From Mytilus galloprovincialis (taxonomy: Eukaryota > Mollusca > Bivalvia > Mytilida > Mytilidae), in assembly GCF_965363235.1 (NCBI RefSeq), contig NC_134849.1:66917122-66981121 (forward strand): a DNA stretch of 64,000 bases. Direction: 5' to 3'. This document shows positions 36,986 to 63,714 of the stretch, piece after piece. Below the pieces are notes generated by a model that was not told the origin of the DNA, ran no database searches, and saw nothing but the letters and a program-made list of their open reading frames with translations. The position numbers were made by a program, and so were the translations under genes. Within the stretch, counting starts at the first letter, position 1, and the number at the start of each line of letters is the position of its first letter.

Positions 36986-37009
36986 GTACATATATTGGGA
37001 GTTGCCCAC

Positions 37010-39210: not shown

Positions 39211-39239
39211 GAGACCCCCATCATCTGGTCCCCGGCATG

Positions 39240-40450: not shown

Positions 40451-40929
40451 TGTACAGTACACCATCCCCACTAAGGACAAATAATTCCCGATTTAACCAG
40501 TAGTACTTGGGGGCGGGACCGCTGAGGAAGATTTCCTCCTCAGAGGGTTCCCCTTTTGTTTTCCTCCATTGAACCACCCATTTTAAGTCTGGGTCCTTAC
40601 TTTGGTTTTCTTTTAACTCTTCCTGACTGTAGCCCAAGTTAACCCCTAGGTCCCCTCCTACTTCCTGCACCCAGATGTCACCCTCCCCCTCTGACCATAT
40701 GGCTAATTCGTCCCCCCTCTTTGACACAGACACCCGGGATATTTGCACCACTGGTTCTCGTGTGTCTTTGGGTTGTGTACTACCATAGGGTCTCTTTGCC
40801 AAGGGTATGGTATCATCAACATTTTCTGTGAACTGTCCCCAATTTTGTTGAGCTCGGGCACAGTAGGTACATCCCCCACAGGGCAAATTTGCTAGAACCT
40901 TGTCTACTTGAAACTCAGGACACGGTCCA

Positions 40930-42120: not shown

Positions 42121-42699
42121 TGAGCCTCCTCTTCTTGGGCAAAACATAAGGATGTGCGCCGCATTCGCTGTTTAATGGGGGGGGGGGGGGGTGATTCCCG
42201 GTGTCAATGCCATGTTCCAAGGCCGTGAAATGGCCCAGGTCTAAGTCACTGCTAGCAAAGACATCCTGAAATTCCTGTAACAGGGAACACAAGGTCTCCT
42301 CCTCCCCCTTAGACAAATCCTCACAGGACCTAATAAACATCTCTTGTAAGTGTTGGGGCAACAATTTTTCCTTAACATCTCCAGCAACCCCCATCTTGCA
42401 CACTTTAGGGCCCGGGGGTTCCCCCATGTCGACTTTCTGAGCTTGGGCTAGTAGATCCCCTTTTGAGATCACCAGGGGACTATCGGTGAGGTTTATCAGA
42501 CACAACACCGGATCTTGACCTGCATCATGTAAGGTTCTGGGTATGAGCAAACAGCCCTCAGCCTTTGCCTCAATGATGTATTCTCGACCCATGGGTTTGG
42601 CCAACACTCCCATGACTCTTTGAACTGAATTGGCTGGGACTGTATGATTCTTTCCCGCCCGTACCTCAGTTGTTTGGGGCAATGAACTGGCCTGACCCC

Positions 42700-43080
42700 A
42701 TGACATTTGGATGACCTCCCCGTGAATGGACAATTGATTCCTATGCAAGTCAAGCGATATGCCCTGCTTCCTTAAGAAGTCTATTCCCAAAAGCATCTGA
42801 TCTCCAATTGGTGCTACATATATGTCCCATGTGAATTCTTGGTTCCCCAACTTAATATAAAAAGGCCCAGCAACAAACCCATTCATTTGTAGGCCCTTTC
42901 CTGCAGTGTTCATTACCACTTCCTTAAGAATAGGAGGTGGCTCCTTTAAACCTTTGTACATTTCCTCGGATATTAGGGTAACCTGAGCTGCTGTGTCTAC
43001 AACAGCAGCGACCCTGTGACCCTGGACTACCACAGGCACCCGATACATAGTACCCCCCGTTAACTGACTTATGGTTATCA
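42700..43080 (-). mobile_element. aspartic protease region
   Basis: The segment 'VAAVVDTAAQVTLISEEMY' holds the active-site motif in D-T-A-A form, and 'QMLLGIDFLRKQGISLDL' is the second conserved strand of retropepsins. An acidic linker precedes it. Confidence 0.82.
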
Positions 43081-43489
43081 TTTCTCTTTCCCCCTCTGTC
43101 ACCAAGTCCCCCTCCCCATCACTGGTTGAGCTATCACACAGTGTTTGTTCCCCTTCCTCCCCCGACTCTTCGTCTTGTGACCCTGATTCAGACATGTCCG
43201 GGACTATGAGACTGATGGGTTCCCTCTTAGGCCCCTCTATTGGTTTTGCTGTTTGAGCTATGTCTTTCTCCTTGGTAGACGTGGGGTCTGGTGGGACGGG
43301 AGGTAGTGATTTAATGACCCCTAGTTCCTCGGGATGGGACGGTTCCTCTAGGCATTCCTGCACAAGTGGGGAAATTATTTCCTCCGGTATCATTTCTATT
43401 TGACTGATAGTACCCTCCTTAGTTAAGTAAGGTGGGTTATGGCTTATCACGAGGTCCTTTATACTCCGTGGTTTAGGGGCCAGACTCAG

Positions 43490-44460
43490 ACCTCTTGAGT
43501 CGACCCGTTGGAGTTTAACGGACCCTTGTTGTCCTGGAAGGTAACTTTTTTCCCCCCAGGCCGTGGAGAATTAGACCTTTGAAACTTCGGGCATTCCCTT
43601 TTGAAGTGACCTGCCTCCCCGCAATGGAAACAACCACCATTACCGGCACGAGGAGAGGGGTTTCTGGATGGAGGCCTAGCATTATTGCGGACAGCAAAAG
43701 ATAGCTTTTGTATTTCAGACATGATATTGCCCAGAGTCCCGCTTACCTCCCCCTTGAAGGCATGAAATTGGTCCTTCAAATCCTGGACATCTTTAGGAGA
43801 ATGTTCTTTGGGGATAATTTTGGAAGGAGCATTATTGGGGACTGGTCCTGATGTGGAACATACAGTACAGTGATCCCCACCCCTACCTCTGGTCTCAGGA
43901 CTTACACTTTTTACTTCTTTTCGGGCACTACGGCCATATATAGCTTGGTGGTTATGTTGGTGCCAACGAATTTTATCCACTGCCTCCTCAATACTCTTTG
44001 GTTTGACATTGGAGGCCAACATTCCCCCCTCCTTATCTGAGGCCCCCTGACACAATCTCATGATGGCTTGCTGGTACATGTGATCTTCAGGAAGGTGACG
44101 GAAGGCTTTTGTGGCGAGTGATTGAACCCTGTCGGCCCAGTCCTCTAAGGTTTCATCCCCACCCTGCCTGGCAATGTTAAATTGGACTTGGGCTGTTTCC
44201 GGCAACTCATTGAACCCAAATCGTTTGGCCAACTTACCCACCAAGTCCTCATAAGACAAGTCATGCCTTCTTTCCACGAGCAAGGCATAAAACTCACTGG
44301 GTTTCCCATCAAGGGACCAGCACAATTCATCCTTGCACTCCCCTGAAGACCACCCACTGACCTGGCATAATCGGGAAAATTTGGCATAGAAAGCCTGCCA
44401 ATTAGTTTTTCCATCATACTTTAAGCTCTTTTGTAGGATGGGAGGTCTAACCCCCATAGA
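43490..44460 (-). mobile_element. gag region with zinc knuckle
   Basis: A retrotransposon-gag type domain ('YDGKTNWQAFYAKFSRLCQV', 'LEDWADRVQSLATKAFRHLP', 'YQQAIMRLCQGASDKE') is followed by one CCHC knuckle 'CFHCGEAGHFKREC'. It would form the particle and bind element RNA. Confidence 0.88.
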
Positions 44461-44879
44461 CCCCCTCTGTCTTTGGTTATCTGACCTATATACTGGTTTT
44501 GAAAACCCCCTCTTCCCCTTCCTGTATCCCCGGCATTGTTATATCTAGACCGAGGTGTTTCCCCTTCATACCTGTAATCTCTTGGACCCCCATAAGCACC
44601 CATGGGCCTGTCCCATTGGTCCTGGTGGGTTCCCATGTCTTCCCTGAACCCCCGGTTAAGTTCCCCACCATCTTGGAAGTTGAGATGCTGGGATGGAGAT
44701 GTGGACACTGACTCCCTGGCTCTGGGTGTTTCTCCTGATTGACTGGGATACTCAGTTTGCCCCCTACCCCTTGCCTGTATGAGGCTATCGATCCTTTGCA
44801 CCTTCTCCTGATGCCCCATCTCCTCTTTGCAAAATTTATTAGACCCCCTGTTGGGTGGCAGAGAGGTACTAAAATCCAT

Positions 44880-45053
44880 AGATTCCAGAGCTGCCTCAGT
44901 TATTCTCATATAAGGAACCTCCCGTAGGTCCTCCAACTCCAGAATTCCTTTATCCTCCCTCAATTCCCAAATTTTTGCCGCAATTTTTGCCCCTACCCCT
45001 GGAATTGATAACAATTCCTCAAAAGTGGCAGAGTTTATGTGGACTCTAGCCAT
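44880..45053 (-). mobile_element. helix-hairpin-helix segment ahead of gag
   Basis: The start of the first frame reads 'ARVHINSATFEELLSIPGVG', then 'AKIAAKIWELREDKG' and 'LEDLREVPYM'. This is the ComEA/PSPC-type HhH motif (N-A-T..EL..IPGVG..A..I...R...G.F....L..V), a DNA-binding module. A long Gly/Arg/Pro-rich stretch follows. I do not know of this module as a standard part of Gypsy gag. Confidence 0.7.
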
Positions 45054-45713
45054 GGTTACACTTTAATGGAAACACAATAAAATAAACAATAAACAATTTA
45101 GGATTAAATTAGGGCTTAGGCAAGGGTATCTACTGAAAAGGGGTGTTTATACTATCAAACTGTTTTGTATGGTTTTACAACAACAACTTTTTAACTGGGG
45201 ATCAAGCTTATAAGTTGACCCCAGAGGTATGTATGTAAAGGGCAAGTGTATGTGTGTGGGTTGTTTAAATTGACACTTACAATTTCTTCTTTCTGTTTTG
45301 ACAACTGGAAGATTTGCAAATTTGGGTTGCAAATGGAAGTTGAACTGCGTAGGTCAACTGAGTGCAATACGCGGCGGAAATGGATTGGGGTTTACACAAT
45401 TCCCTACAAGGGTTTTGCAGAACGAGTAAGGGGTTCACACTTGTTCCTACAAGGGCTCCGCAAACGGCCAAGTATGAAAAAATCCATCAAAAATAACAAA
45501 CGGTGACTGAAACTTAACCACACAAGGTTCCCTTCCCGGTGCTTTAACTTTTCCCTCCCAATAAAACTAACCTAGCAAAGCTATGGTTAGCGAAAACTGA
45601 AAATAGGTGACCTGTCAGGGATCCCTAAAAATAAAATGGAGGTGCTGTTTTGGCCCCTTTAAATTTTCAATTTCGATGTAGAATTCGACTCCCCGAGTGA
45701 ATTTGTTCGAAAA

Positions 45714-45731
45714 CGAATGCTCGCAGCGCCA
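45714..45731 (-). promoter_or_regulatory. primer-binding site
   Basis: One base inside the 5' LTR the minus strand reads TGGCGCTGCGAGCATTCG. The TGGCGC start is typical of a site that pairs with a tRNA 3' CCA end; the tRNA was not identified. Confidence 0.75.
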
Positions 45732-45732
45732 A

Positions 45733-45934
45733 TGTAAGTTTCTCTAAACTTACCGTGGTTACTTGCAAGTACAACTACGACGGTTATCTCTGATATTCTC
45801 TGGGTCGGCTAGATCAGCACTTGTAGGTTATTCTGGCTCTAGTTATCGACTGCCGGCAGATCCGAAACGAGGCTCTCTCGTCTTCCGGATCTGCCTCCAA
45901 TGTGGAGCACCACCAATGACCCTGAGGTACTACA
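45733..45934 (-). repeat. 5' LTR of the Gypsy element
   Basis: The 202-bp LTR begins TG and ends CA in element orientation and matches the 3' LTR base for base as far as I can read. Its downstream end carries a short palindrome ('taagtttctctaaactta'). Confidence 0.95.
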
Positions 45935-46181: not shown

Positions 46182-46498
46182 ATGGGACGCAAATTAAAAG
46201 GAGGATTCAAAACAAGACAATAGAAAGAAAGGTTAAAGAAAGTATCTGGGGGATTGTTAGAAAGGATAAATAATGTCGACCTAGACCCCTCTGTCTTGCA
46301 ATTGCACGACCATTGTTATTCGTCTCTTGACAGTCAACCGAATGTCCCTTCAAACGTCAAGTCATGGAATTCAGGAAGGCGTATTGTAGAGCTTGGTGTA
46401 CTCGCAGAGGGTCTGTCGGGCTGTAAGAAATGTGGACTACCTCTGCAATTGGCCTACGCATCTGACATTCTCACATATGGATTGTCAGCTATTATAAA
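46182..46498 (+). pseudogene. transposase-exonuclease exon 1
   Basis: It starts at ATG 46182 ('MGRKLKGGFKTRQ'), meets a TAG at 46221-46223, and continues in frame 'LDPSVLQLHDHCYSS', 'SWNSGRRIVELGVLAEGL' and 'CKKCGLPLQLAYASD', the conserved 'GRRxVELGVLA...C..C' start of this transposase family with a zinc-binding CxxC. The donor is AAG|GTAAAC at 46499, phase 0. Confidence 0.8.
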
Positions 46499-46894
46499 GG
46501 TAAACACTACAAAACGTACACCAAAAGTTCGTATTTATTTCAAATAATCTTCAGCCCTCATTCAGACTGTTAATTATCTATTTGAGTATTTCATACCCCA
46601 ATCTCCTAACCTATAACATGCTTAAGAAGACACATTGTAAAAGGTTTATGTGCTTTGTTTATTTTGAAATTGAAACTGGTATGAGGACAAAGATCAGGTT
46701 AGTATTTTTTTTTTACTAATATTCTATCATAGGCACGAAATGGTGTATGGTTTCATGTTTTATAAATGAACCTGTCCCACACCTATCGTTTTCTTTCTTG
46801 ATTCCAATCTGTTGGTCTGCAATTAATATAGTTAAGGTTGAAGCGCACATTTCTTAGGGGTAGTGCTGCCCAATCATTGCCAATTTTTTTCATC

Positions 46895-47040
46895 TTTGGA
46901 CTCCCTGGCGGATCTAGAAATTTCATAAGTGGGGCCACTGACTGCGCTAAGAGGGGGCCCGCTCCAGTCATGCTTCAGTAATTCCCTATATAAGCAACCT
47001 TTTTTTCCCCAAAAAGGCCCCCCCCTCTAAATCCGCCTCT
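46895..47040 (-). mobile_element. MITE, family R5
   Basis: 'ctggcggatctagaaatttc' at one end and 'taaatccgcctctggga' at the other are inverted repeats. Shared internal words ('actccagtcatgcttcag' type) link it to the opposite-orientation copy at 51527-51662. Confidence 0.65.
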
Positions 47041-47162
47041 GGGACTTAATTCATTTCCGTCATTCCCCCCTCTACTATTGAGCAGCACAGACTGGAATGT
47101 TATTGTACTTGTAATAGAATTTTGATTGATTTTGGCAGTTTGATTGTACAACACCGTCAGGT

Positions 47163-47325
47163 TTATAGAATAAAATTGAGAATGGAAATGGGGAATGTGT
47201 CAAAGAGACAACAACCCGACCAAAGAAAAAAACAAAAAAACAACAACCAACAGGTCTTCAATGAGGCAAGAAATTCCCGCACCCGGAGGCGTCCTTCAGC
47301 TGGCCCCTAAACAAATATATACTAG
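47163..47325 (+). repeat. dispersed mussel repeat with conserved core
   Basis: 'attgagaatggaaatgggga', 'gtgtcaaagagacaacaacc', 'aaattcccgcacccggaggc' and 'gtccttcagctggcccctaa' form a mussel repeat I recognise as abundant. It overlaps a chance open frame at 47122-47310. Confidence 0.75.
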
Positions 47326-47873
47326 TTAAGAAGTCTGTATGTCTGCTTTTACGAGACATACTGTTTACAGTATACAAAAATATTTTCAGGAGTATCAGTT
47401 CTGAAAAGGGGTTAGAAGGGGTCCTGAATAGGCTGATCCTGAAATCTTGGGCTTAAAACATGTAATCTTGATAAAGTTGCTATCCCCCTCAAATGACAAT
47501 TACCATATTTTTATAATAAGTTTATATCATGTTTAACAATACAAAATTAAAAGCTCCTTACTGAGCATCCACCAACCATAGTAAAAATAGATTCATCTAG
47601 GTAGAAATGTTACAGCCAGAATTTAAGATTTATTTTAGTTGTTGTTTATTTGAATAATAAAATATAGGAAGATGTGGTTTTTATGCCAATTAGTAAACTC
47701 TCCATTCAAGTATAATAATACCATTAAATCAGAAATTATTGCGATGTTTTGGTTATTGAAAAAATGCAACTGGGTTTTAATCTCAATAATTTAAACTCGC
47801 ATTTTGAAATATTTTATATGAACTAAACAGGTTTTCTTTCTCATGTCGCAAATATTAAAAACGCATTAAAGTC

Positions 47874-48102
47874 TTACAGCTAATTTCCTAATGCATGTAG
47901 AGCAACACTTTGGAGTTTTCTTGCTTTGTTTGCATAGTTATAACTGGATAAAATTCAATTGAATTTAAATATCATATGCAGGTTTACATACCTATATGAA
48001 GATGTCATTCTTAATTACAAGGCTTGAAATAAACATTTATACAAACAAAGAAAGGAATCCAACCAAACTTTTACTCTACAAGCAGTAGGGAATAAGCTGT
48101 AA
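47874..48102. mobile_element. 229-bp MITE, copy 1
   Basis: The ends 'ttacagctaatttcctaatg' and '...gggaataagctgtaa' are about 32-bp inverted repeats. It matches 57371-57622 along its length. Confidence 0.75.
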
Positions 48103-48549
48103 AGGATAAAATCACAATAATAAATGCACACAATAATTCTAAATTTACAGTATATAAAAGTAAACCATTGTAGGTCAAGGAACTATCTTCAACTTTGGAG
48201 AACTGTTAATTGTACACCTATTTTTACCCAGTACACACAACTTTGACACATTTTTGTTTACCAACATACAAAAAATCTACAATGCACTTATTATAAATTT
48301 AGCAAGGTTTTATTTTGAGAACACCAAATCTGCATGAGGACTACAGCTTTCACGTACTAGATTATCCCTGTAAAAAACATAAGTTGAATTTTACACATAA
48401 ATCCACTGAATTTCTTCATTTTCTTTAAAAAATGTTATTATCACAGTTTATAGACTGTACCAAATAATTATGCACTGATCAATTGCAAACAATATGTCAA
48501 AATGTTTTAACTGATAATTTTATTCTATTCTTTTTTAAATACAATGTAA

Positions 48550-48635
48550 TAATATAAGATGTCAGCACATGAACAATGTTCACACTGGAAATAGACATGA
48601 CAAAATATTGGATGCCAACACAAAATTAGCTACAG
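48550..48635 (+). pseudogene. transposase-exonuclease exon 2
   Basis: A small exon reads 'CNNIRCQHMNNVHTGNRHD' and 'KILDANTKLAT' and ends at the donor ACAG|GTATGT (48636). Its last base plus the first two of exon 3 make the Ala codon of 'ATAMVHTGIG'. The 5' edge is uncertain because no good acceptor AG is visible; the acceptor may be mutated. Confidence 0.65.
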
Positions 48636-48989
48636 GTATGTGCTATCACATGTACAATTCTTGTCAGATTTTTATAAATAACAACATTATCAAAGGTTTA
48701 GATCTGTGCTGACTTTTGCAAAGTTGTGATGATCAACAGTTTTTTTTGGAAATTATGTTGTATTTTTTCTAAAGCCAACTATCTATATATAAGATAAATT
48801 GATTGTCTTCTTTATTAGATAAGAATATGAAGTTTATAGTTATAAGTTTCTTGTATAGATAAAATATATATGTATTTTTGGTCTTTTTGGTTTGATTTTA
48901 GTTTATGACTAATTTTATATATTGTTCATCTCAGTATTCATTCATATTGAATAGTTTGTAATTATTAAACATTTTATGTGTACTTTCAG

Positions 48990-50228
48990 CAATGGTGCAT
49001 ACTGGAATTGGTGGTAGACAAGTTAATTCCTCAGGGGTGTGGAAATGATATGCCCGACTCGCCCGACTCGTACATTTGAACACTCGGACAAGTAATTATT
49101 TTTTTTCTGGGTTGCCCGTGGACAAGTAAAAAATTATAAAAGACAAAGTTCAAATCCAAGAAAAATATAGAATAAATTCAAAATGTATACAGATGTTTAA
49201 TTTGTGTAAAAGAAATCAATGGTCAGCGATTAACAAAATAGATAAAAATAAGTATGCAAACCAGAGTCGCTGTAACATTGCATTGGTTTTCTCCATTAAC
49301 CCGGGATCGTTGATTAGGTTTTATCAATCATGAGTGGAAGTGTCATTTTATATGACTTTGTATCGAGATTCAGATTGATATTTAAAACAGCGGACAAAAA
49401 GAGTAATGAGTAGAGTAAAAAAATAAAAAAAGCAAACGCAAATGGAGGATAATGAATTCTAAAAAAGATATGAAAGTGAGAGTTTCTGACATCGTGACTA
49501 TCGGATTGCACCTTGCAATCTAGGATGGAAATTTAGAAAATAAAATTATTTTTTTGTCTTTATATTTATAGATCAAAGGTCAACAATATTTGTTGTCAGA
49601 GTGGAAAATAGAAGGGATGCCTTAATTGCCCATTAAGACAATTATAAAAAAAAAACAAGTGTACACTTACAATGTCAGTTGAGAGAAACACAAAAAAAAA
49701 CAATAGTTTATCCATTATTTAATTTTCATTTCTTCACTCACTTTCCTCTAAATTAGTATATCATTATATGTACCTGGCTACAATTCTTATTCAAAACCTG
49801 CTGCAAAAATGACCTTTACATGTCATTTCATTGGTTGTTTGCTGTAAGGTTTCTGTCCCATAGATGTTTCTTATATCTAAACCTACTTTCCTAAATACAT
49901 TTAAACAAATGGATTTCATTTGCTTGTGATGCAAAACAGTGCTAAGAATTATAAATTAGCCAGCAATGAAATACCAATATTTATTAGGATCATCAGGGCA
50001 AGTAATTTTTTTTTCGGACAAGTGAAATTTACAGTTTTACTTGCCCGGGGACAAGTGCCCACAGCAAATATTTCCACACCCCTGTTCCTTTTTAACTGCT
50101 CTAAATATCCCACCTGTTAGTAATACCTTACTTAGTGCAAGACAAAAGGAATCTGGAAGTGCCATTGAAACAGTAGCAGAGACTACTATAGCTGAATGTT
50201 TATCTGAAGAAATAGATATCACTAAACA
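48990..50228 (+). pseudogene. transposase-exonuclease exon 3, split by a transposon
   Basis: The acceptor is TACTTTCAG. The coding parts are 48990-49031 ('MVHTGIGGRQVNS') and, after the element and one target copy, 50090-50228 ('LTALNIPPVSNTLLSARQKE', 'IETVAETTIAECLSEE'). The donor is CA|GTAAGT at 50229, phase 2. Confidence 0.78.
49032..50084 (+). mobile_element. 1053-bp non-autonomous DNA transposon, copy 1, in exon 3
   Basis: The ends are perfect 15-bp inverted repeats CAGGGGTGTGGAAAT/ATTTCCACACCCCTG. The 5-bp target duplication TTCCT lies at 49027-49031 and 50085-50089; without it the exon reads through. Subterminal 'ggacaagt' motifs recur near both ends. Only a 65-codon chance frame is inside. 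CAGGGGTG ends recall hAT elements, but hAT usually makes 8-bp duplications, so the mobiliser is uncertain. Confidence 0.92.
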
Positions 50229-50632
50229 GTAAGTTCCACATTTACCACATTTTATATAAATAAAATAAAAAGGTTCCAAAAGTAAACATAATTTGAAATT
50301 GTAGCATTTTAGAAATAGTCTTGTAATGCTGATGTTTGGTGAAGCAAATTGGTTAGACCACACTAGATATGGGACTAAGGGGAACAACTCGTATTCAAAG
50401 TAGTTCAGCATTTAATGATATCTGTGTTCCATTATTACTGTTGTAAATATTTATGCCATCTGGAATGATAAGTTAAAAGAATTTAATTATGTAATTTTCA
50501 TGCCCCAATCAGTCTATATCAAACTATTTAAGCTGGTTGTTGAGACTAACTGCAAAAGAACCTTTTCTTCTATATTTTCAGCTAAAAATATCTGAAAATG
50601 TCATTATTACAGTATACAGATATTTTTTCCAG

Positions 50633-50718
50633 GAAATTTGATAGTGATGAGTTGACTGTGAGTGTTGATGGTGCATGGCAAAAAAGAGGATGTGGAAGGT
50701 CATATGACAGTCTTTCAG
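50633..50718 (+). pseudogene. transposase-exonuclease exon 4: first catalytic Asp
   Basis: The exon lies between acceptor TTTTTTCCAG and donor TCAG|GTATGT and reads 'KFDSDELTVSVDGAWQKRGC' then 'GRSYDSLSG'. 'VSVDGAWQKRG' holds the likely first Asp of the DDE triad. Confidence 0.8.
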
Positions 50719-50997
50719 GTATGTATAATGTGAAAATTCTCAAGTTACTAAGGTTTTCTTTTTTCAAAGAAAATAAGCTACAGACGAAAATTTGGAAATG
50801 GAAAACCAACAAAATTAATATTTTCACAATATCCAATAATATATATGGTATAGCATTCTATTGTTTTCATTGGATATTACGATTACAATTTTCAGAGGTT
50901 ATTTTATATACATATATCCTAAGCTTTGTTTCAACTTTATGTTTATTGACGCTATGTATCAATTTATATGTATAGAGGTGGTCAATTAAAAAACAAC

Positions 50998-51125
50998 ATT
51001 CTATGCGGTATGGGCTTTGGTCATTGTTGAAGGCTGTACGGTGACCTATAGTTGTTAATGTCTGTGTCATTTTGGTCTTTTGTGGATAGTTGTCTCATTG
51101 GCAATCATACCACATCTTCTTTTTT
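50998..51125 (-). repeat. R3 repeat, minus orientation
   Basis: 'gcggtatgggctttggtcat', 'aaggctgtacggtgacctat' and 'gttgtctcattggcaatcat' are the reverse complement of the start of 27290-27605. Confidence 0.7.
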
Positions 51126-51179
51126 CAAACATATCATGACGTCACACATGTAATAACCACAGAGGAAGCGCTCCAGCAG

Positions 51180-51275
51180 ACAAAAAGAAAATTACATGTT
51201 ATTCACTGGATATTTCTGTGTCATTTTGGTCTCTTGTAGAGAGTTGTCTCATTGGCAATCATACCACATCAATTT
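51180..51275 (-). repeat. second short R3 fragment, same orientation
   Basis: 'ctgtgtcattttggtctctt' and 'gagagttgtctcattggcaa' repeat the end of the previous copy about 150 bp on. Confidence 0.65.
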
Positions 51276-51526
51276 TTTATATGTTATAATTCTTGCAATT
51301 TTTTTTTTAAAACACACAGAACGAACATATGGCGCGCATTGAACACTTTTTCCCTAATACATTATTTACATATGTAATATGAAAATTCCGGGCTTTCACT
51401 AATTCAGTACATTATGTATGGACTTTAAAGATTATATTGACACTCAGACTTCTTCCTAGTTCAATATATTACATATATTACATCTAATCCCTCTATTAAG
51501 TGTCTTATGATAGTTGTGTTTATAGG

Positions 51527-51662
51527 CAGATCCAAAGGGGGGGGGGCTGAGGGTCAAGGCCCCCCTTTCTTAAGAAAAATTTGGTTAAGTATACAGGGAA
51601 TCACTGAAGCATGACTGGAGTGGCCCCTCCCCCAAGTCAGCACCCCCTCCCCCTCCCCCTTT
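51527..51662 (+). mobile_element. MITE, family R5, second copy
   Basis: 'ggcagatccaaaggggggg' at the left, 'gggaatcactgaagcatgac' inside, opposite in orientation to 46895-47040. It lies in the intron before exon 5. Confidence 0.6.
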
Positions 51663-51751
51663 TACAAAAAGTTTAATTTCACTGCACACAATTTAAATCA
51701 AACCTGAATTATTTTATTGCTGTACAATCAATTTGATATTTTGAATTACAG

Positions 51752-52457
51752 GTCACAGTTCCATGATTGGTACAGAAACAGGAAAAGTTGTAGGCTTCAG
51801 TGTCTGCAGCAAGTATTGTAAAATGTGTGATGAAGCAACCAGAAAAGGAGTACAGGCAAAGACACATGACTGCAGAATGAACTGGGATGGAAGTGCAAAG
51901 GCAATGTAGCAGGACATGGTGGTAGAAATGGTCCAAAGTATCAAAAGCAAAGGGAGTAATGTTGGTACAATCATAGCTGATGATGATGCTACTACGATAG
52001 CAAGATTAAGAAAATCTGTTGATCCCAACATAAAAAAAAATGTCTGACAAGAATCATGTTAAAAAGAATATAGCAAACGCACTTTACCAGCTTAAAGCAA
52101 AACATAAGAAACTTACACCAAAGTAATCAAATACTTGATTAACTGCCTTAACTACATGCTGTGCCAAAACCAATATAACCCTAAAGGAGTAGAGAATGGA
52201 TTGGAGGCGGTAGGAAGACATCCTTTTGGTGACCACTCATTTTGTGACAAATCATGGTGTTCCCACAAAGAAAATGCTTCAAAAAAATATTTGTCTTTGC
52301 CTTTTGGAAAGCCTTTAAAGGATATACCTCTTCAGACTGATTTGACGGACCTAATGAAAGTATATAAGAAACAGAGCCAAAAGTTGTCAAAGCTAGGTAG
52401 TACCCAGGGAAACGAGAGTTTCAACAAGAGTGTTGCATCAAAAGCGCCAAAATCTCA
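51752..52457 (+). pseudogene. transposase-exonuclease exon 5: remaining catalytic core
   Basis: The acceptor is GAATTACAG. It reads 'GHSSMIGTETGKVVGFSVCS', 'CKMCDEATRKG', a TAG at 51907-51909, 'GTIIADDDATTIARLRKSV' (likely second Asp), then after frame changes near 52040 and 52123 'DKNHVKKNIANALYQLKAKH', 'HPFGDHSFCDKSWCSHKE' (zinc-binding Cys/His cluster) and 'LGSTQGNESFNKSVASKAPK' (likely catalytic Glu in NESFN). The coding match stops at 'PKSHY' where an R3 repeat fragment begins; the exon's true end and donor are gone. Confidence 0.8.
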
Positions 52458-52560
52458 TTACATTACTATCCACAAAAGACCAAAATGACACAGACATTAA
52501 CAACTATAGGTCACCGTACGGCCTTCAACAATGAGCAAAGCCCATACTGCATAGTCAGCA
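52458..52560 (+). repeat. R3 fragment replacing the end of exon 5
   Basis: 'ccacaaaagaccaaaatgac', 'cactataggtcaccgtacgg'-type sequence and 'ccttcaacaatgagcaaagc' begin exactly where transposase homology stops, and end at 'catagtcagc'. The open frame runs a few codons into the repeat before stopping. Confidence 0.75.
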
Positions 52561-52883
52561 TATTAAGTTGTTTCATGCTTTGCTTTTTACATTGGAAACA
52601 AAGACAGGTTGGAGAGGTCGTCACTAAAAATTAAATATTGTATGCATATAATATAAGCATACAATTTTAAGCAATGTCCACTGCAAACATCATGTTATTG
52701 ACATGAAGTGGTCTTAAATGTGTGGATACACAAGTAAATACTTAACAATAAAATCAATTGAATAAAAAGATATCTGCAATAAAAAAAATTACATCTTTGA
52801 TAGTGATGCTCACAGTACTTCACTTACACATGAGTATTGTCAAATTTTTGAATATAAATATATAGAATAAATATATTTTTCAG

Positions 52884-53023
52884 GTCAACAACAACATCGG
52901 CTTATCTCCAGGTGTTCATACAAAAAGACTTGCAATACTTAGAGACCTTCAAGCAAGGAAAAGGAGAGCAATAAGCATTACTAGGAAAGAAAAAATCAGA
53001 AGGATCCAGCTACGAAACAGAAA
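52884..53023 (+). pseudogene. transposase-exonuclease exon 6: basic linker
   Basis: The acceptor is ATTTTTCAG and the donor AAA|GTAAAT. It reads 'VNNNIGLSPGVHTKRLAILR' and 'DLQARKRRAISITRKEKIRR', a basic helix that ends the transposase part. Confidence 0.75.
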
Positions 53024-53472
53024 GTAAATAATTATTTCAACTGCATTTAAAAAAAAAAGAGGGAGATTTATATGTATTTCAGTGGATTCACAATGACTGG
53101 TAAATTGACCACTTATTACTACGCCTGTAAGGACTACAAATTTAATTTTCCTGCTCATACATGTAGGTCTGGTTTACGCTTTATTTCCAGGCGTTATACT
53201 CCTTATAATTTTGTACGGGTGGTCATGTCATAAATATAAGAGGAAATGGTACTAGATTGTTTCTCATTACCTGAATATAGAAATTTGAGGATCATGGAAA
53301 GAATAAAAAAGCATTACAAATTCTATCAACCTTTCAAATGCAACAAATGTTTTAGAAATTAATTTTGCAACTACAGTGACATTAGTGTCAAAATAAACCT
53401 AAATCATTTGACATTATTTATTGTTTTTAGCAAAGGCTAGAATGACTTTAAATGAAAATGTTATTATTGAAG

Positions 53473-53648
53473 GGTGAAGAGAAATGCAGTTAATAGATGT
53501 GTGAGGGCACAGGTTACAGCTGTGAAATGGACGGATGACCACCAAGACATTGTTGAAATTCCTTCAGCACTTGTTCCACCAGAAGTTCACTGCAATATTC
53601 CAAATACTGCAAAAGTTATTTGCTTTGACTTGGAAACCACTAGTTTAG
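53473..53648 (+). pseudogene. transposase-exonuclease exon 7: junction and Exo I motif
   Basis: The first base completes a Lys codon; the exon reads 'VKRNAVNRCVRAQVTAVKWT', 'DIVEIPSALVPPEVHCNIPN' and 'AKVICFDLETTSLG'. 'FDLETT' is the Exo I D-x-E motif of DEDD exonucleases. One exon thus joins the basic transposase tail to the exonuclease, which makes chance fusion of two gene models unlikely. The donor is TTAG|GTATAT. Confidence 0.8.
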
Positions 53649-53924
53649 GTATATAATTTGTTTTAATGACATAGGTCAAGGTTATTGCAGGAATACTGGT
53701 GAATATAGAGTTTAATTTCATATTACACAAGCTCAAATAATAATTACAATTCCAAGTACAATATAAATATTCTTGCAATATAACACTTTGACCTATGATG
53801 GCAAAGAATCTCAAACTTTTTAAAAATATGTATTTTTGTCACTGATTATGTTGTTTACATGTAAGATAGAAGCTCTGTTTGCACTAGTGCAAAAAAAAAG
53901 GATAAAAGATATACAAAAGGACAG

Positions 53925-54030
53925 TCAAACTCATAAATTGAAAAGAAGCTGACAATGACATGGCTAAAAAATGAAAAAGACAAACAGACAAATACTAGTA
54001 TACAAGAAACAACATAGAACATTATTATAA
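53925..54030 (-). repeat. retroelement 3' tail repeat
   Basis: 'ggacagtcaaactcataaat', 'gacatggctaaaaaatgaaa' and 'gacaaacagacaaatac' are the reverse complement of the tail at 3868-4065. It lies in the last intron. Confidence 0.65.
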
Positions 54031-54059
54031 AGACTTAGCAACATCAACATTCATTGGAA

Positions 54060-54185
54060 TATAAAAAAATGAAGAGGTTTGGTATAATTGACAATGACGT
54101 TTATTTATCCACCATGGTTCAAATGAAGTTAATATAATCAATAAAAGGCAAACATGTGACCTTCAACAATAAGCTAGATAAACTG
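54060..54185 (+). repeat. R3 fragment, diverged
   Basis: 'ggtttggtataattgacaatga' through 'gtgaccttcaacaataagct' follows the order of the 27290 copy with many changes. Confidence 0.5.
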
Positions 54186-54189
54186 ATGC

Positions 54190-57100
54190 TTAAATGGGCA
54201 TCTATGAGAAAACCATGGAGATGGTGCTCCATGCAAAGTTGTTTGATTTTGTATGAAACTTTGCTGACATGTTCAGGTTGACCTCATATGAAAGTCATGC
54301 AAGTTTGAAGCCCTTACACTGCTGGTAACCATGGCAACGATAGGGATTTAGGGTATTTTCGAGTTTATTTATAGATGCATTTACTGAAATGCATAGATTT
54401 TATAAATTTCTCAAATAGAAATAAATACTATAATACTTCTGAGTGTTTAAATACTTTAATAGCACAGATAGGATGTGTATGAAGTATAAATCACATAATT
54501 TTATTAAACATAATGATATATATAGAAAATAAGGGTGTGGCAAGAAACATAAAATGATAAAAAAATATGGCCTTTTCATCTAATCACACTAAAACAGACA
54601 CTACAGCCCAAAAGTCGCTTTAATTTACCTTAAATTTCAGAAAAGCTTTGCATTTTCTTTGGTTCACAATATTTTGAAGGGATTTCGGTTGCAAATTAAT
54701 TTTATAGATTTTATTGATCATTTAGATAGCCTCCCCCCTTTTTTTGTATTTTCGCAATAAATTGAGGAAAGTCTCATATTTTAATGAAACCAAGCATTCA
54801 AAAATAAATACTTGAATTATAAAGATTGTAACATGCAATATAGGTAAATCAAATAGAAAATTCAAAGTGAAATGGATTTTTGTGTCACAAACAACAGTAA
54901 GCATAAGGCTTAAAAAAGGGGGGAGCTGCCAAAGACAATTTCTTTTTGGTATTTTTTTTTATTCCAAATTCCTTTAGTACACTTGTCCCTATTACGTTAA
55001 AGAGTAAAATCCATTCATTTCATCCTAGTAATCCCATTTTTGGTAATTGCAGCTGGCTAATTACTAAAGTTGTATTCTGGTTACTGAAAAATGATATGAA
55101 ATTCAATGTCAAGTTCATCATATTTAAAAATCTTAAGTATTGACATACAGAAGTTGTGTCTGACAGGTAAACAAAATTAAGACACGTTGCAACCTTTTAC
55201 TTGCATGCTGGTTACCATATAAGTCATTTTGATCATGAGTACCTGAGACAGTGTGGATAAAATCTGAATTTCTATTGTACAAAGGGAGATAATCCAATAA
55301 AAATGCTGATTTTTAAAACCTTAAAATTGCATGTACATATTAATTTAAACTAACATACACTTCATCAATTTAATAAAATATAAACATATCTCTATTTGGT
55401 TATCTGGAGAGAGAGTTAATAGTGCATTTGAGCATATACTCTTGGTTTGCTTTTGTTGTAGTACTTTCTAAAATTCTCCTAAAAAAGGTCTAAATTTATA
55501 AATTCTCTTTTAGCATTGATAGTGATACATTTTTAAATATCTCAATCTGTATAAATGATCATAAATGTTGTTATTTTTTATAGCATTAGTATTATATTTA
55601 ACAATCAATGAAGATGATACAATAACACTAAATGGTGCTTACATGCAAGAATAAGATTATTATAAACATACATAAAAATTGTTGCATTAGGTATGGATTT
55701 TAGGGAAGTATTAAATTGTTTCCATACTATCTTATAAGAATTTACATACATGTAACTACATGAACTATGAAAGGTAATTTACTAATAATTCAATCAATAA
55801 AACTAGTTTGTCAATCTAATAAACAATTTCTGACAAATGAAAATATTATTATGTTTATCAAATGGCCAAGTACATTCGTAATCTTCTTGATTGTCTTCAA
55901 TACTGATGACCTTTTAATACAGAAGTAATTTGAGACTTCTTATTCGCTGATGAGAAAGCCTTGCTGGTGGTGAGACAGTGAGAACATTCTATTTCCTAGC
56001 AAATATCTCTCTCTTCCGATTTGTGTTGCAACTGTGTGTTGACTTGGTGGTTTGCAAGACTTCAGCGAGATTCACATTGCCGTTTTTTCCTTTTTTTCAA
56101 AGCATATGAGTTTCATTTCAATTTATTTTTATTTGAGCTTGCAATTTTTTAACATCAACAGGAAAAATCAAAGACAGATCAGAGCCTTATTCAAGTATCA
56201 GTAATATTATCTAAGTTTTTCTTCATCATAAACATGTTTATCAACAAAAATGTGTCTCAGCAATCAATCTTCTTTCATGAACTCCAGTTATTTTTGGATC
56301 ACCAAATGTCTGTAAAAAATAATAAGAAAACAATTGTTATACATTAAATGATTGAAATTTCCTAAAAAGAAATTACTTATTAACTTTGTCTTAGTGTAAA
56401 ATGTGTTTCGATTATCACAACTCTGACATTCCAGTACATAGAATAAGAAATAAAGTATACTAGCTAAAAATGGACCTAACTTTGATTTTTTTCTTATTCC
56501 AAGCTGCAGCAAACTTAGTTTTAATGAAGTTAATTTTGCAGATTTCATCTTGTATTAATGACGTTATGACAATACAAAAATAGGGAGATGAGTATTGATT
56601 GCAAATGAGACAAAAGTTCAAATGAAATGAATGTAATGCTTCTGTACAACCTTCAATAATGAGAATAAAACAGCTCAAGGGTACATTCTATTACAAATAC
56701 AGAGATTGCACCTTCATCAGGTTGGAAGGGGGGCACTATATAGACACTACATTCAAACTTGATTCACATGATACAGTTCAGAATTTGGATTGTGATGAAT
56801 TATTAGACACATCATACAGGTTTCTGACACAGAATAAATGTGGTAAAAGAACTGATGATTTTGAAATTGGACTTGTGCCAATATCCAAAATCTAAAGTGT
56901 AAAAGACATGATTAGATTTATCATAACAAAGAACCCCATATACATGTATGCAATTTTTAATGAATTTAAACAAAGTTAAAGTTTGGACCCCAATTTGAAT
57001 CAACTTGAAAACTGAGCCCAAATTATAAATCTTAACATGCTAAATGCATGATAACATTTAGCATAGAAAAAAAAACTTCAATAATATTTTAATAAACTAA

Positions 57101-57370
57101 CAAAGGTTTTTTTGCCCCCATGATCTTTTTTGCAATTTGAAAACGAATATTAAAAATCTAAACATATAAGAAGTATTTAACCAAAAAAGTACAATACACC
57201 TTTTAATTTTGCATAATATCAAAGAACACCAATTATTCAATTGTTTTATGAAATCAAGTTTAACTTTGGACCCTTTTGACCCTATAGCTGATATAGACCA
57301 ATTTAAAAACAAGCCAAAACATTTGAAATTGGTAAAACAATAAGCATAGGAAACAAATATATAATTAATT
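54190..57370. other. last intron, left part
   Basis: AT-rich intronic sequence with no recognised gene. A further weak R3 fragment lies at 56575-56670 ('gattgcaaatgagacaaaag', 'cttctgtacaaccttcaata'). Confidence 0.45.
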
Positions 57371-57622
57371 TTACAGCTAATTTCCTAAGGCATGTAAATC
57401 CAAGACTTCGGTTAGCTTGCATGGTTTGTTTGTATATTGTACAATTGCAATTGACATAACGTCTAATCAAATTTAAAAGTACTCCATAAAGGTTCAAATA
57501 TGCCTATATTTATTGTTTGAAGATATCAACCTTAATTACAAAGCTTGAATCAATATTTATACAAACAGAGCAAGCAAACCTATCAAAGTTTTACTCTACA
57601 CGCATTAGGAAAATAGCTGTAA
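57371..57622. mobile_element. 252-bp MITE, copy 2
   Basis: The ends 'ttacagctaatttcctaagg' and '...ggaaaatagctgtaa' are inverted; it aligns with 47874-48102, sharing 'aattacaa.gcttga' and 'catttatacaaac'-type words. Confidence 0.72.
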
Positions 57623-58858
57623 TAATGGTAAAAGTGTTTTTTCAAAAATGAAAAATACAAATGTAGTCTTCAGGTTTACCATAAATGCATGTATCCTATA
57701 TATATAAAAAAAAGTCAAGCTGACAAGAAAACATATTTTTTTCTAGTTTTATTCTTATAAAGAGAACAATTCCAATGATGAGTAATGAACATTTTGTTGT
57801 GTAAATTGTACTGATATGACCCTTAATTGATCATAAAAAAATTCTTTGAATGTTCTGTGTGTTACGTTTACTTTTTGTTCACCAGATTGTTAAAATTGAA
57901 GGGTTAATCTAATTTATTGATTATTTATCATGTTTTTACAATAATAAATGTAACTGGTCAATTTCCAATTTCTATACATTGTATATGATTATATTTGACA
58001 AATAATGCCACAACACAGGTCTTATTTGCTGTCTATTTAGTAGTCTCTTGTTATGACTTGTTTGATTCATTTTTTTTTATCAATTATATCATATATTTAC
58101 CTATGTGATCTCCTATCATATCTGCTTTCATTTTAACATTATGTTTGTGCTTTTCCATCTTCAACATTAACCTGTTGATAAGAAATAAAATATTGTATAT
58201 TTGTACATTTGCATGATCAGTACAGTGAGTTACATCTACATGTACATTGTACATTAAGTTGGCTTAACATAATGCATTGGTTCATTGAAAAAAAAAGTTT
58301 TGTAGATATGATAATTAATTTGTGTAAATGTCATAAATGCTATGATATCAATCACATCATCAAGTAATTCATTTCTTCAGTATTGTTATTTTGATTTTTT
58401 TGTATCTGAGTAATCTGTAATGTTATAATCTCATGTTGCCCCTTATGGGCCCTTTAATTTGGAATACATTTGTAAGCATATTCTATTCAGATTCTATTTT
58501 ATTAACGATAGAAGTAAAGACATGTACAAGTTCTCTTTCCATGATTCTTGAGAGACTGAGAGAGAAAAAAGTTGTTCTATTAAAATTTAGAAGGCAAACA
58601 CATAAATCTTTTAGTATCAGAAGAATTTCAAATCATTATAAATGTATGTCAATGAAAATTAAATCAGTGTTTGCTTCAAGAAAATTATGTAAATACCCCC
58701 CCCCCCCCTCCCTTTTTTCCCCCAAAGAGAAATGGTCTATGCTCTTCTTTCGATATTTATGTTTTGAATCAGATGTGATGTTTCTACAATAGGTCTTTTT
58801 ATGGTGTCAAATTGCTTTTTCTAACCACAAAAATAATAAATAACAAACTTACCAGAAC
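57623..58858. other. last intron, middle part
   Basis: No gene recognised; a C-rich run near 58697-58712 breaks an otherwise chance open frame. Confidence 0.4.
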
Positions 58859-59909
58859 CAGGGGTGTGGAAATATTTGCTGTGGGCACTTGTCCCCGGGC
58901 AAGTAAAACTGTAAATGTCACTTGTCCGAAAAAAAAATTACTTGCCCTGATGATCCTAATAAATATTGGTATTTCATTGCTGGCTAATTTATAATTCTTA
59001 GCACTGTTTTGCATCACAAGCAAATGAAATCCACTTGTTTAAATGTATTTAGGAAAGTAGGTTTAGATATAAGAAACATCTATGGGACAGAAACCTTACA
59101 GCAAACAACCAATGAAATGACATGTAAAAGTCATTTTTGCAGCAGTTTTTGAATAAGAATTGTAGCCAGGTACATATAATGATATACTAATTTAGAGGAA
59201 AGTGAGTGAAGAAATGAAAATTAAATAATGGATAAACTATTGGTTTTTTTTGTGTTTCTCTCAACTGACATTGTAAGTGTACACTTGTTTTTTTTATAAT
59301 TGTCTTAATGGGCAATTAAGGCATCCCTTCTATTTTCCACTCTGACAACAAATATTGTTGACCTTTGATCTATAAATATAAAGACAAAAAAATAATTTTA
59401 TTTTCTAAATTTCCATCCTAGATTGCAAGGTGCAATCCGATAGTCACGATGTCAGAAACTCTCACTTTCATATCTTTTTTAGAATTCATTATCCTCCATT
59501 TGCGTTTGCTTTTTTTATTTTTTTACTCTACTCATTACTCTTTTTGTCCGCTGTTTTAAATATCAATCTGAATCTCGATACAAAGTCATATAAAATGACA
59601 CTTCCACTCATGATTGATAAAACCTAATCAACGATCCCGGGTTAATGGAGAAAACCAATGCAATGTTACAGCGACTCTGGTTTGCATACTTATTTTTATC
59701 TATTTTGTTAATCGCTGACCATTGATTTCTTTTACACAAATTAAACATCTGTATACATTTTGAATTTATTCTATATTTTTCTTGGATTTGAACTTTGTCT
59801 TTTATAATTTTTTACTTGTCCACGGGCAACCCAGAAAAAAAATAATTACTTGTCCGAGTGTTCAAATGTACGAGTCGGGCGAGTCGGGCATATCATTTCC
59901 ACACCCCTG
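58859..59909 (-). mobile_element. 1051-bp non-autonomous DNA transposon, copy 2
   Basis: It is the near-identical reverse complement of 49032-50084, with the same 15-bp inverted ends and a different 5-bp target duplication AGAAC (58854-58858 and 59910-59914). The 65-codon chance frame is preserved residue for residue, so the copies parted very recently. Confidence 0.92.
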
Positions 59910-59914
59910 AGAAC

Positions 59915-61165
59915 CAACTGAAACTGAAAGTTTTGCTTTGATATTTCCGTTGCTAGATTTGGAAGGGTCATGAAAGGATGGCATCAACTCATTTTGTCTT
60001 CTTGTCTACTGCAATACAACTCCTGTCCATGTTTGCAGCATATGCATTTTAAAATGTGAGTCTGAAACCTAGACATGATAGTGATAGTCTAGCCTCATGA
60101 GTCATGTCTAGACTATCTGATCAGGATCAGACTTATCCCAGTGGCAGTGGGAATATCTTTGCCACATGGTTTGCTATGTCTATGTTACACTCTTTCAATA
60201 AAAATAAGTTTTTTACTACACCGTACTCATCAAAAATATCATTATTTCCTATCCTTCTGCACATTTGTTGATTTCCCTCCTTCTGTTATTGGCACTAAAT
60301 CTACCTTTTATTGTGAAGAGTTTTACAAAGGGAGATAATTTTAGCTATATTTTTCAGTTTTTCATCTTTTATTCAAATAAGCTTATATCAATTTGCAACC
60401 AAAATTCCGTTAAGGAATACTAGTTTGTAGTGAACCATAACGTTTAGCAAAATATTTTTTCAATTTGAGTGACTTTTGAGGTTTTATGGATATTTTCAGT
60501 ACAGGCTGATTTCAAATTTAAGAAAAACACAATTATGTCAATAAAAATAAAAACAAAAATAAAGGTTGAAATAAGATCCAAAATACAGTTTATTTTAGTA
60601 GAAAGTCTGAATTTTAAGGCCAAACAAATTTTTTTGTCATATAATACTTTGAACTATTCAATAAAAAAAAAACCAAAATGTCCATTTTCAACAACATTTT
60701 CCAGCAAATTATGTACTCAACAAGAATTGCCCTGTATTCACATAATTTGAGATAAATTGTCATTTTTTAACCATAGAACTATTAGATGTACTTAATACTT
60801 TACTAGGAACCCAAAATCAGCTGAAAATTCCACAACCCCTTTCATATTTTTTTTGATTTTGCATGGTTTTCTCGTAGACATCCATTTAAGTTATATAAGA
60901 CTGGTATATACTTAATGAATGAATTTTTGCTTTTCCAACATAGTTTAGATGGGTAGAATTATCAAATTAGTATAAAACTGCATGTTTGATATATATTTCT
61001 AAAATAGATCAACTTGAGCAGATTTTCCATTTTATTTGCCATAAAACTATATCTATTTAAAAAAAAAAAAACAATGACTGATGGGCAGTTGCATGGACCA
61101 CTTTTCTCTCTGAACACTTGCACTTGGTAATGTACTAAAATTAAAATATTGTTTTTTTTTTATAG
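59915..61165. other. last intron, right part
   Basis: AT-rich intron with short low-complexity runs, ending in a long T tract and the TATAG acceptor of exon 8. No other feature recognised. Confidence 0.45.
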
Positions 61166-61980
61166 CAAGGGACTCACATATTACACAGATTGCAGCAGTC
61201 AATGAAGAATCTCACTGGACTTCCTACGTAATACCAAAATTACCCATTTCCAGTCAAGCCAGTGAGGTAACAGGTCTTACTATGAGAAATGGACGGATGT
61301 TCCACCAAGGAAAAGTTGTGGAAACTTCAACAATTTCTACAGCATAAGATGGCTTTCTAGAATTTCTTAAAGCTGCAGGTCATAACATCTACCTCCGAGG
61401 CCATAATATCAAGACCTTTGATTGTCACATTTTAATTAATACCCTTAAATCTGTTGGAAAGACTGAAGAATTGAAAAAATGTGTAGAAGGATTTGTAGAT
61501 ACCAGGCTGCTTTTTAAAATTAACAATCCAGATCTCAAGTCTTTAAGCCAAGTTAACTTGATAAAAACTCTTATGAATTGCAGTTATGATGCACATGATG
61601 CACTAGAAGATGTGATTTACCTTCAAAAACTATTGGACTTCACAAATATTAGAATAGCTGATCCTAAATTTTCCACTGCAACTTTCACTGTACAGACAGC
61701 ATATTTTTCTCATGACAAAATTATTTTGACTAAGTTAAACCTTCCATCACTAAGGGAATTTATTGACCAGAAAGTAATAAGCATTGGAATTGCTCATAAA
61801 ATTGCATCTTCAAATTTAAACAAATCTTCACTTCTGCTAGCATTTTCCAGAGGCCAGGAAGAAGGAATTAGACAACTATTTTCAGACGAATGTTGTAACC
61901 AGGGACCAAGAGTGACAAAGTCGTCAAAAATTATAACTGCTGTTTCAAACTTTATCAAACAACACTTGACTGAAAGTTAA
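61166..61980 (+). pseudogene. transposase-exonuclease exon 8: DEDDh exonuclease domain
   Basis: The acceptor TTTTTATAG is followed by 'ARDSHITQIAAVN', so Exo I of exon 7 continues directly. It then reads 'YVIPKLPISSQASEVTGL', a TAA at 61345-61347, 'DGFLEFLKAAGHNIYLRGHN' with 'IKTFDCHIL' (Exo II, N and D), 'KCVEGFVDTRLLFK' and 'DAHDALEDVIYLQKLL' (Exo III, HxAxxD, the DEDDh form). A further 100 residues of helical tail end at TAA 61978-61980. The family (TREX/ExoX-like) removes nucleotides from 3' ends using two metal ions. Confidence 0.85.
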
Positions 61981-61997
61981 TTAATTATTGACTTTAA

Positions 61998-62244
61998 GGT
62001 GGTACCCAACACTTTCACTTAAATTAATTTGGTTCGTTTAATTTTCATAAAATTTTGTCAAACTATTAAAAGTTCAAAAATCTTTAACCAACTGTTTTGT
62101 CAGAAAAATTACACTGGTTATTTAGCAGTTTGACAAACACCAATTTTGATCATTGAGAAGCTTTACATTCCTTTTACAACACAACGTCATTAAAATGTTA
62201 AGCTAACTTTACAGAGTTATCTCCCTGCAGTGTTAGGTACCACC
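61998..62244. mobile_element. 247-bp MITE with TTAA target site
   Basis: The ends 'ggtggtacccaacac' and 'gtgttaggtaccacc' are inverted repeats, flanked by TTAA at 61994-61997 and 62245-62248. TTAA duplication fits piggyBac- or Kolobok-type mobilisation. It starts 18 bases after the exonuclease stop codon and so may lie in the gene's 3' untranslated region. Confidence 0.85.
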
Positions 62245-62248
62245 TTAA

Positions 62249-63714
62249 GTTAATCTACATTTATTTATGTCTAATTTTCAATGTTGGACAGCAGGTCAAC
62301 AGGGATGAGTTGTGAAATGAGATAATTTCTGAAATCTGTTTTTTAATACTTTGAAATATGAATGGGATATTGTTACCAAGTCATCAACACATGCTTTCTA
62401 ATTTTTGTCATTTTTCCATTGTTATTCCTCAGACTGTTTTTATATGCCATTTCTTCATCATTTATATATCTGGTCTTACGTTATAATCATTAAAATTCTA
62501 GGGATATTTAAAAACTGCGAAAGAAATAAGCATTAGCTAGCAAAACATATATCATAATTTCATTTTTTTTATGAGATAATCGACATGAAACTGTCTTGTA
62601 TGCACACCAAGCACCTATTTCCAAGGGCTTGCAATGTTCATTTTATATTGGTTCTATTGTATATTACCACAGAAAAAATGTTAATGCTAAAAGTAAGCTT
62701 TTGTAAAGAAAATTTTGGAATTAAGGGTTATTTTTATGATAATTTCCCCAAAATCTTTTAAAATAGCAAGGCATGTGTTCTTTAGTATTTTATTTATGCC
62801 AAAGAACAATGTATTTAGCAGATCAAACACACAAATTGATGTTTTAACTTGATTACTGAAGAAAAAAATCAAGAAATCTGCTGTTTTAATGGGATTTTTT
62901 GTTTTTTTCATAATATACTTGTGGGTGAGGGATCGTTAAATGGCATAAAACATTTTTATATGCGCACCTACCCCCATTTTTTTTGGCTTAAAATGTTATA
63001 GTTTTGTGGGTCCACATGTTTGCTAAGTTTAAAAAAAAGTTTAAATCGGGAAGTTTAGTATTTTTTTGGTATTAGTTGGAATTTGGGCTATTTTTCGTGA
63101 TAAATTATGAATTTTTTTTTCTCACTATAATGACAAAAAAAAATTAATGTGTATTCAGATGAGGTATTATTTATATTAATTTTATGTAATGCATAGTATT
63201 AAAAAGATACAGCACCGGAACTAAGTTGTTTACTTGATTACATGTTTTGTCTGATTTTATTGGATTTTTCACTTTTTCCGTATTCCATAAATAGTCAACT
63301 TTCAATTGGCTGTAGTTTTCTTAAATGCGCACCTACCTACAATTTTTTTTTTAAACACTTCAGAATTTATTTGTCTACAGGAATATCATATTCATTCAAA
63401 AAGTTTAATTCGGGAAATTTTTTACTCTTCAGAAGAGAACATCCTTAAGCATAATATTACAATAAATCAATCGGTAATTAAAATGTTGGAATAAAATATT
63501 ATAGACGTAACAATTGCATCATAAAAACGTGTAGAAATTCCATAATCAATTAAAATAACATAGGAAAGCAGAGTGTGTCACAAATCAATTTCTCCCACCT
63601 TGTCCGTATCATAGATGTATTTTTTATTTTCTCTAAAATGTTTTATATATTAAATGTTTAACATAATATAATTAAATAATGTAACAACAACTTTTGCTAC
63701 AAATACAAATTAAA
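62249..63714. other. AT-rich downstream stretch with a diverged direct repeat
   Basis: No gene recognised. About 62955-63055 and 63320-63425 share 'atgcgcacctacc', a T tract and 'aaaaagttta.atcgggaa' in the same order, a decayed direct repeat about 365 bp apart. Confidence 0.5.

Follow-up and report, generated by a model that had tools for sequence, protein, structure and literature searches.

A decayed transposon copy in Mytilus galloprovincialis, probably KolobokD, with a DEDDh exonuclease followed by a PML_C domain

In a 64,000-nucleotide stretch of the genome of the mussel Mytilus galloprovincialis (contig NC_134849.1, positions 66,917,122 to 66,981,121; hereafter the window, with position 1 as its first letter), the motifs of a DDE transposase are followed by those of a DEDDh exonuclease. 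Such a locus raises the question of what the combination represents, whether a Mutator transposon with an acquired nuclease, two neighbouring genes, a domesticated host gene, or a transposon of a kind already known. We conclude that it is very probably a KolobokD DNA transposon that has decayed, KolobokD being the Kolobok transposons that are defined by encoding a DEDDh exonuclease and are on record from molluscs, arthropods, and cnidarians (Kojima and Bao, 2022; PMC9587614). The fusion itself is one further copy of an already described transposon lineage; an earlier note, made from the letters of this DNA, knew of no description of it, and the combination had been published in 2022 (PMC9587614). 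Behind the exonuclease lies a predicted PML_C domain, which leads to a second question, namely whether transposons of this kind could have supplied a module of vertebrate PML.

Transposase and exonuclease exons

The motifs reported in the earlier note are all present where it had placed them. On the transposase side these are VSVDGAW (50658-50678), IADDDATT (51973-51996), NESFN (52411-52425) and the Cys/His cluster HSFCDKSWCSH (52234-52266), and on the exonuclease side FDLETT (53624-53641), GHNIKTFD (61399-61422) and HDALED (61594-61611). The exons that carry them are listed in Table 1, including pieces beyond those first read, namely exon 2 (about 48559-48635) and the two parts of exon 3, which are separated by a 1053-bp insertion and read open across the empty site once the TTCCT duplication is counted a single time. 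GT/AG sites and agreeing phase are found at the joins of exons 2-3, 3-4, 4-5, 6-7 and 7-8, and to this extent the exon-by-exon phase linkage that had been described holds, although a single unbroken chain is not confirmed. The join of exons 5 and 6 is destroyed: exon 5 is interrupted at 52464 by a dispersed repeat, and no coding continuation of it was seen in a three-frame translation of 52460-52885. With the single acceptor spotted by eye, the phases of exons 1 and 2 are mismatched. Exon 7 is indeed the junction, holding a linker and then the Exo I motif FDLETT, and it contains no Met codon upstream of that motif, so that a stand-alone exonuclease gene would require an additional upstream exon. 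There is good support for transposase and DEDDh exonuclease belonging to a single exon chain.

This copy is dead and cannot now make its protein. In-frame stops are found at 46221, 51907 and 61345. Exon 5 also has two frame changes, near 52040 and 52120. Because of these stops and frame changes, together with the nested insertions, the split exon and the truncated exon, we regard the copy as neither active nor domesticated.

Placing the element among DNA transposons

Joined, the transposase pieces match the Pfam family PF20700, "Mutator-like transposase", with an E-value of 2.6e-73, whereas taken singly four of nine pieces match and just one does so above the Pfam cut-off (exon 5 pieces: 2.6e-15, 9.4e-6 and 2e-5). 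The label "Mutator-like" used in the earlier note goes back to this Pfam name and is correct as a family name only, since the zinc-finger layout and the candidate termini indicate Kolobok. The catalytic motifs occur in the order VSVDGAW, IADDDATT, SDKNH (the DxxH motif, 52043-52057) and NESFN, the roles of the DDE residues being set by motif position and not via alignment to Kolobok proteins. The HSFCDKSWCSH zinc finger sits between SDKNH and NESFN, and a CCHC finger, YCKMC...HDC (51814-51873), lies downstream of the first D. According to the survey by Kojima and Bao (PMC9587614), a zinc finger between C/DxxH and E is present in nearly all Kolobok transposases and in none of MuDR, P or hAT, while a CCHC finger behind the first D occurs in KolobokP, E, D and 5 and otherwise in a few solitary families only. 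The locus thus shares with KolobokD, as described there, the Kolobok DDE transposase, both fingers and a DEDDh exonuclease (RNase_T 1.7e-8, with the PDB matches given below), and differs from it in that the Mytilus copy is dead and riddled with insertions. A Mutator (MuDR) transposon that had acquired an exonuclease, and whose ends would carry 8-9-bp duplications, is improbable: it has the Pfam name of PF20700 on its side, but the finger between DxxH and E is absent from MuDR according to the survey (PMC9587614), the candidate duplications are TTAA with GG..CC ends, and the domain set agrees with the KolobokD description.

Kolobok elements have TTAA duplications and 5'-RR..YY-3' ends. We scanned for ends flanked by TTAA and for exact 13-mers near the gene, and the pair TTAA GG...CC TTAA at 36338/63448 ranked first among the 671 gene-enclosing TTAA pairs with RR..YY ends (left side from 20000). 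Its score of 13/15 was reached in 22 of 1000 null draws when RR..YY ends were demanded. Among all 15,115 RR..YY TTAA pairs of the window, four score at least 12/15, which are the candidate ends, two pairs within nested repeats, and the pair 26467/45194. These ends emerged after the nested gypsy-like element had been recognised and are thus post hoc; we treat them as candidate Kolobok ends. The earlier note had proposed to look for terminal inverted repeats around intact copies; at this decayed copy the search gave the TTAA-flanked pair (36342/63444), though nothing in its first scan near the gene.

The locus could also be read as two neighbouring genes, with a dead transposase that ends in exon 5 or 6 next to a separate host exonuclease of Plex9/PML type. 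The destroyed join of exons 5 and 6 would fit such an arrangement, and comparable exonucleases are known as host proteins, such as zebrafish Plex9.1 (PMC12934764) and the PDB matches below. Against it, exons 6, 7 and 8 are in phase, exon 7 offers no start before the Exo I motif, the candidate termini enclose both halves, both halves are decayed, and an exonuclease of this kind is on record for KolobokD (PMC9587614); we therefore consider two genes unlikely. Least probable is a functioning host gene derived from the fusion, for although every DDE and DEDDh motif remains readable, there are three in-frame stops, two frame changes, one split exon and one truncated exon, and the "domesticated nuclease pair" suggested in the earlier note finds no support in this copy.

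Several observations weigh against the assignment to KolobokD as a single transposase-exonuclease element. The assignment was made against the published description and not by sequence alignment, and the available portion of PMC9587614 is silent on whether the exonuclease is fused or in a separate frame. Owing to the destroyed join, a continuous transposase-exonuclease protein is unproven from this copy, and exons 1 and 6 individually have no Pfam match. The termini are known from one copy only, an initial scan closer to the gene found none, a looser null that did not require RR..YY ends attained 13/15 in 9 of 200 draws, and the evidently unrelated pair 26467/45194 likewise scores 13/15 and looks like chance. 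Comparisons of the exonuclease piece with viral and genome contigs, and of a single transposase piece with viral contigs, confirmed no relatives, and no homologue of the fusion that might end or start at 53473, as the refuting condition of the earlier note would have it, was found in these collections. The AlphaFold prediction for the exon 8 piece had a predicted local distance difference test score (pLDDT) of 32.5 and went unused.

The exonuclease and its PML_C domain

The joined exonuclease matches three Pfam families above their cut-offs, RNase_T (1.7e-8), Exu_RNase_H_like (2.2e-6) and PML_C (2e-22), while RNase_T on a single piece reaches 0.0059, below the cut-off. PML_C (PF25244) lies behind the exonuclease with 79.6 bits against a cut-off of 27.1, and is matched in the unbroken piece alone at 9.8e-23. 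In a sequence search of the PDB with E-values up to 10, seven distinct sequences were matched: 9l8b (3.9e-33), 9l85 (2.6e-20), 9mrd (4.6e-20) and 9mrc (1.7e-19), followed at much weaker values by exuperantia (5l80, 0.0023; 5l7z, 0.0048) and TREX2 (6a45, 0.26). Of these, 9MRC is zebrafish Plex9.1 (PMC12934764); 9l8b, 9l85 and 9mrd, labelled only "exodeoxyribonuclease III" in the search output, are by their similarity presumably Plex9-type as well. The exonuclease core is 35-39% identical to these last three, and D9, E11, D101, H159 and D164 are invariant in an alignment of the window sequence with three solved chains, as expected of a DEDDh exonuclease. Six bacterial models of DnaQ/PolC type in NCBIfam gave matches, the best at 1.2e-10 and all below their own cut-offs.

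A profile built from the window sequence and the three chains matched next a PolC-type chain (8.7e-11), exuperantia (1.2e-9) and TREX2 (6.8e-8). The same alignment, searched against viral contigs, gave 20 loci of 26-30% identity, which we take as general DnaQ-type exonucleases. Fourteen of them served as outgroup in a tree with the window sequence and the three chains (L004, L005, L008, L012, L014 and L020 were left out by eye as near-copies or partial matches; TREX and exuperantia were not included). The window sequence groups with the three chains (97/97), and the three chains group together (94/87), so that in this long-branched tree the exonuclease core sides with the Plex9-type chains over DnaQ. 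Long branches, and the lack of TREX and exuperantia in the tree, leave descent unsettled. By its matches, nonetheless, the exonuclease appears most similar to the PML-related exonucleases, with 9l8b, 9l85, 9mrd and 9mrc nearest and exuperantia and TREX2 far behind, and the PML_C domain behind it points to the same Plex9/PML family. Judged from sequence, a pair of exonuclease and PML_C with intact DEDDh residues exists in a transposon.

In an intact element, the transposase would excise the element at the terminal repeats and insert it into TTAA, the attached exonuclease may trim 3' ends or intermediates arising during excision or integration, and the PML_C domain could aid nucleic-acid binding. 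An action of the exonuclease on transposition 3' ends has already been proposed for KolobokD (PMC9587614), and the idea in the earlier note that the exonuclease processes excised ends equals this published role.

Nested and neighbouring elements

The gypsy-like long terminal repeat (LTR) element in the candidate 5' region lies about 60 bp inside the candidate left TTAA, and its 202-bp direct repeats are 100% identical, with ACTC at both flanks. It has Pfam matches to reverse transcriptase, RNaseH, integrase, protease and gag. The element looks young and has a helix-hairpin-helix domain ahead of gag (44424-45062), as well as a PHD finger (38419-39285, 1.9e-10) and a TatD-type DNase (37013-38521, 9.5e-36). 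We are not familiar with LTR elements that carry a TatD-type DNase; no literature search on this was made.

The insertions at 49032-50084 and 58859-59909 are inverted copies of each other, with arms 98-100% complementary. These inverted repeats of about 1.06 kb were considered as long terminal repeats of the transposon and ruled out, as they are two insertions with terminal inverted repeats (TIRs) and 5-bp duplications of their own. The short element directly after the exonuclease stop codon has ends that would suit a small Kolobok-type element. Elsewhere in the window, 22122-23273 on the minus strand encodes leucine-rich repeats and then a TIR domain (1e-18), resembling a Toll-like receptor. 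Rfam gave no match at gathering thresholds. A search with a DNA pattern of VDGxxWQKRG-type codons found two loci (L021 and L022), both inside long phage-like reading frames for which no transposase match is listed, and for these reasons we regard the hits as chance.

Table 1. Positions in the window of the exons, the candidate transposon ends and the other mobile elements
Feature	Position	Strand	Basis and remarks
Transposase exon 1	46182..46499	+	In-frame stop; 46224-46499 alone without Pfam match
Transposase exon 2	48559..48635	+	5' boundary by eye, uncertain; phase agrees with exon 3
Transposase exon 3, left part	48990..49031	+	Terminates in the TTCCT duplication
Transposase exon 3, right part	50090..50228	+	Empty site open across insertion
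Transposase exon 4	50633..50718	+	First catalytic D (VSVDGAW); GT/AG and phase; PF20700 0.001, below cut-off, inside joined match
Transposase exon 5	51752..52464	+	CCHC finger, second D, DxxH, C/H cluster, E; one stop, two frame changes, cut by repeat
Dispersed repeat cutting exon 5	52465..52554	.	Second, inverted copy at 51001-51090 (97%)
Exon 6, basic stretch, presumed transposase tail	52884..53023	+	Phase agrees with exon 7; no Pfam match
Exon 7, linker and FDLETT	53473..53648	+	Motif and phase
Exon 8, remaining DEDDh exonuclease (GHNIKTFD, HDALED), then PML_C	61166..61980	+	In-frame stop; Pfam and PDB matches
Candidate left target-site duplication TTAA	36338..36341	.	TTAA-pair scan
Candidate left TIR, starts GGATGT	36342..36360	+	16/19 bp complementary to right end
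Candidate right TIR, ends ACATCC	63426..63444	-	Pairs with left end
Candidate right target-site duplication TTAA	63445..63448	.	TTAA-pair scan
Nested gypsy-like LTR retroelement, not KolobokD	36400..45934	-	202-bp direct repeats, Pfam
Nested non-autonomous transposon splitting exon 3	49032..50084	.	15-bp TIR CAGGGGTGTGGAAAT; 5-bp duplication TTCCT
Second, inverted copy of the same transposon, last intron	58859..59909	.	TIR CAGGGGTGTGGAAAT; duplication AGAAC
Small TTAA-flanked inverted-repeat element, separate from gene	61994..62248	.	255 bp; ends GGTGGTACC...GGTACCACC

Relation to PML, Plex9 and exuperantia

The C-terminal module of PML-1 (PXL) consists of an EXO-like and a SAM-like part, has lost the active site and showed no nuclease activity; among its structural homologues a similar EXO/SAM arrangement is reported in exuperantia only, and no SAM subdomain was found in other nucleases, according to a 2026 preprint (PMC12934764). 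We infer, from position, that PML_C corresponds to the SAM-like portion seen in the PML-1 structure. PML isoform 1 and the Mytilus locus are alike in having a domain of exonuclease fold and behind it a C-terminal domain, which in the Mytilus locus matches PML_C, and they differ in that the Mytilus copy retains the DEDDh residues. Exuperantia and TREX1/2 share the DEDD exonuclease fold, exuperantia and TREX2 being far weaker matches to the Mytilus sequence. Plex9-type proteins (9mrc, and presumably 9mrd, 9l85 and 9l8b) have the active-site residues in common with it; Plex9.1 differs in being a host protein, and we know of no transposase part in it. A DnaQ-type exonuclease is also carried by another DDE transposon, Dada, but there it is of the DEDDy type and lies between the second D and DxxH (PMC3706591), whereas the Mytilus exonuclease is DEDDh and C-terminal.

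We tentatively raise the possibility, more doubtful than likely, that the EXO and PML_C parts of vertebrate PML exon 9, fish Plex9, and perhaps insect exuperantia go back to exonucleases of KolobokD that hosts captured. Capture of this kind is plausible for PML and Plex9 because the exonuclease-PML_C pair is found in a transposon and because there is a precedent for domain donation, the P2X7 ballast domain and Nanor having been argued to derive from KolX, another Kolobok accessory protein (PMC9587614). The opposite direction, in which the transposon lineage captured a host exonuclease, may also apply. Kojima and Bao liken the KolobokD exonuclease to exuperantia, TREX and ERI1, with PML and Plex9 unnamed in the accessible part of their text (PMC9587614), and our literature search, whose reach did not extend to the main Plex9 paper (Mathavarajah, 2023), returned no paper combining promyelocytic leukemia and Kolobok. 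A PML_C domain behind an active-site-intact DEDDh exonuclease in a transposon provides a concrete candidate source of the PML exon 9/Plex9 module, and if host capture did take place, a transposon-borne nuclease would have been turned into a host defence and RNA/DNA-binding factor.

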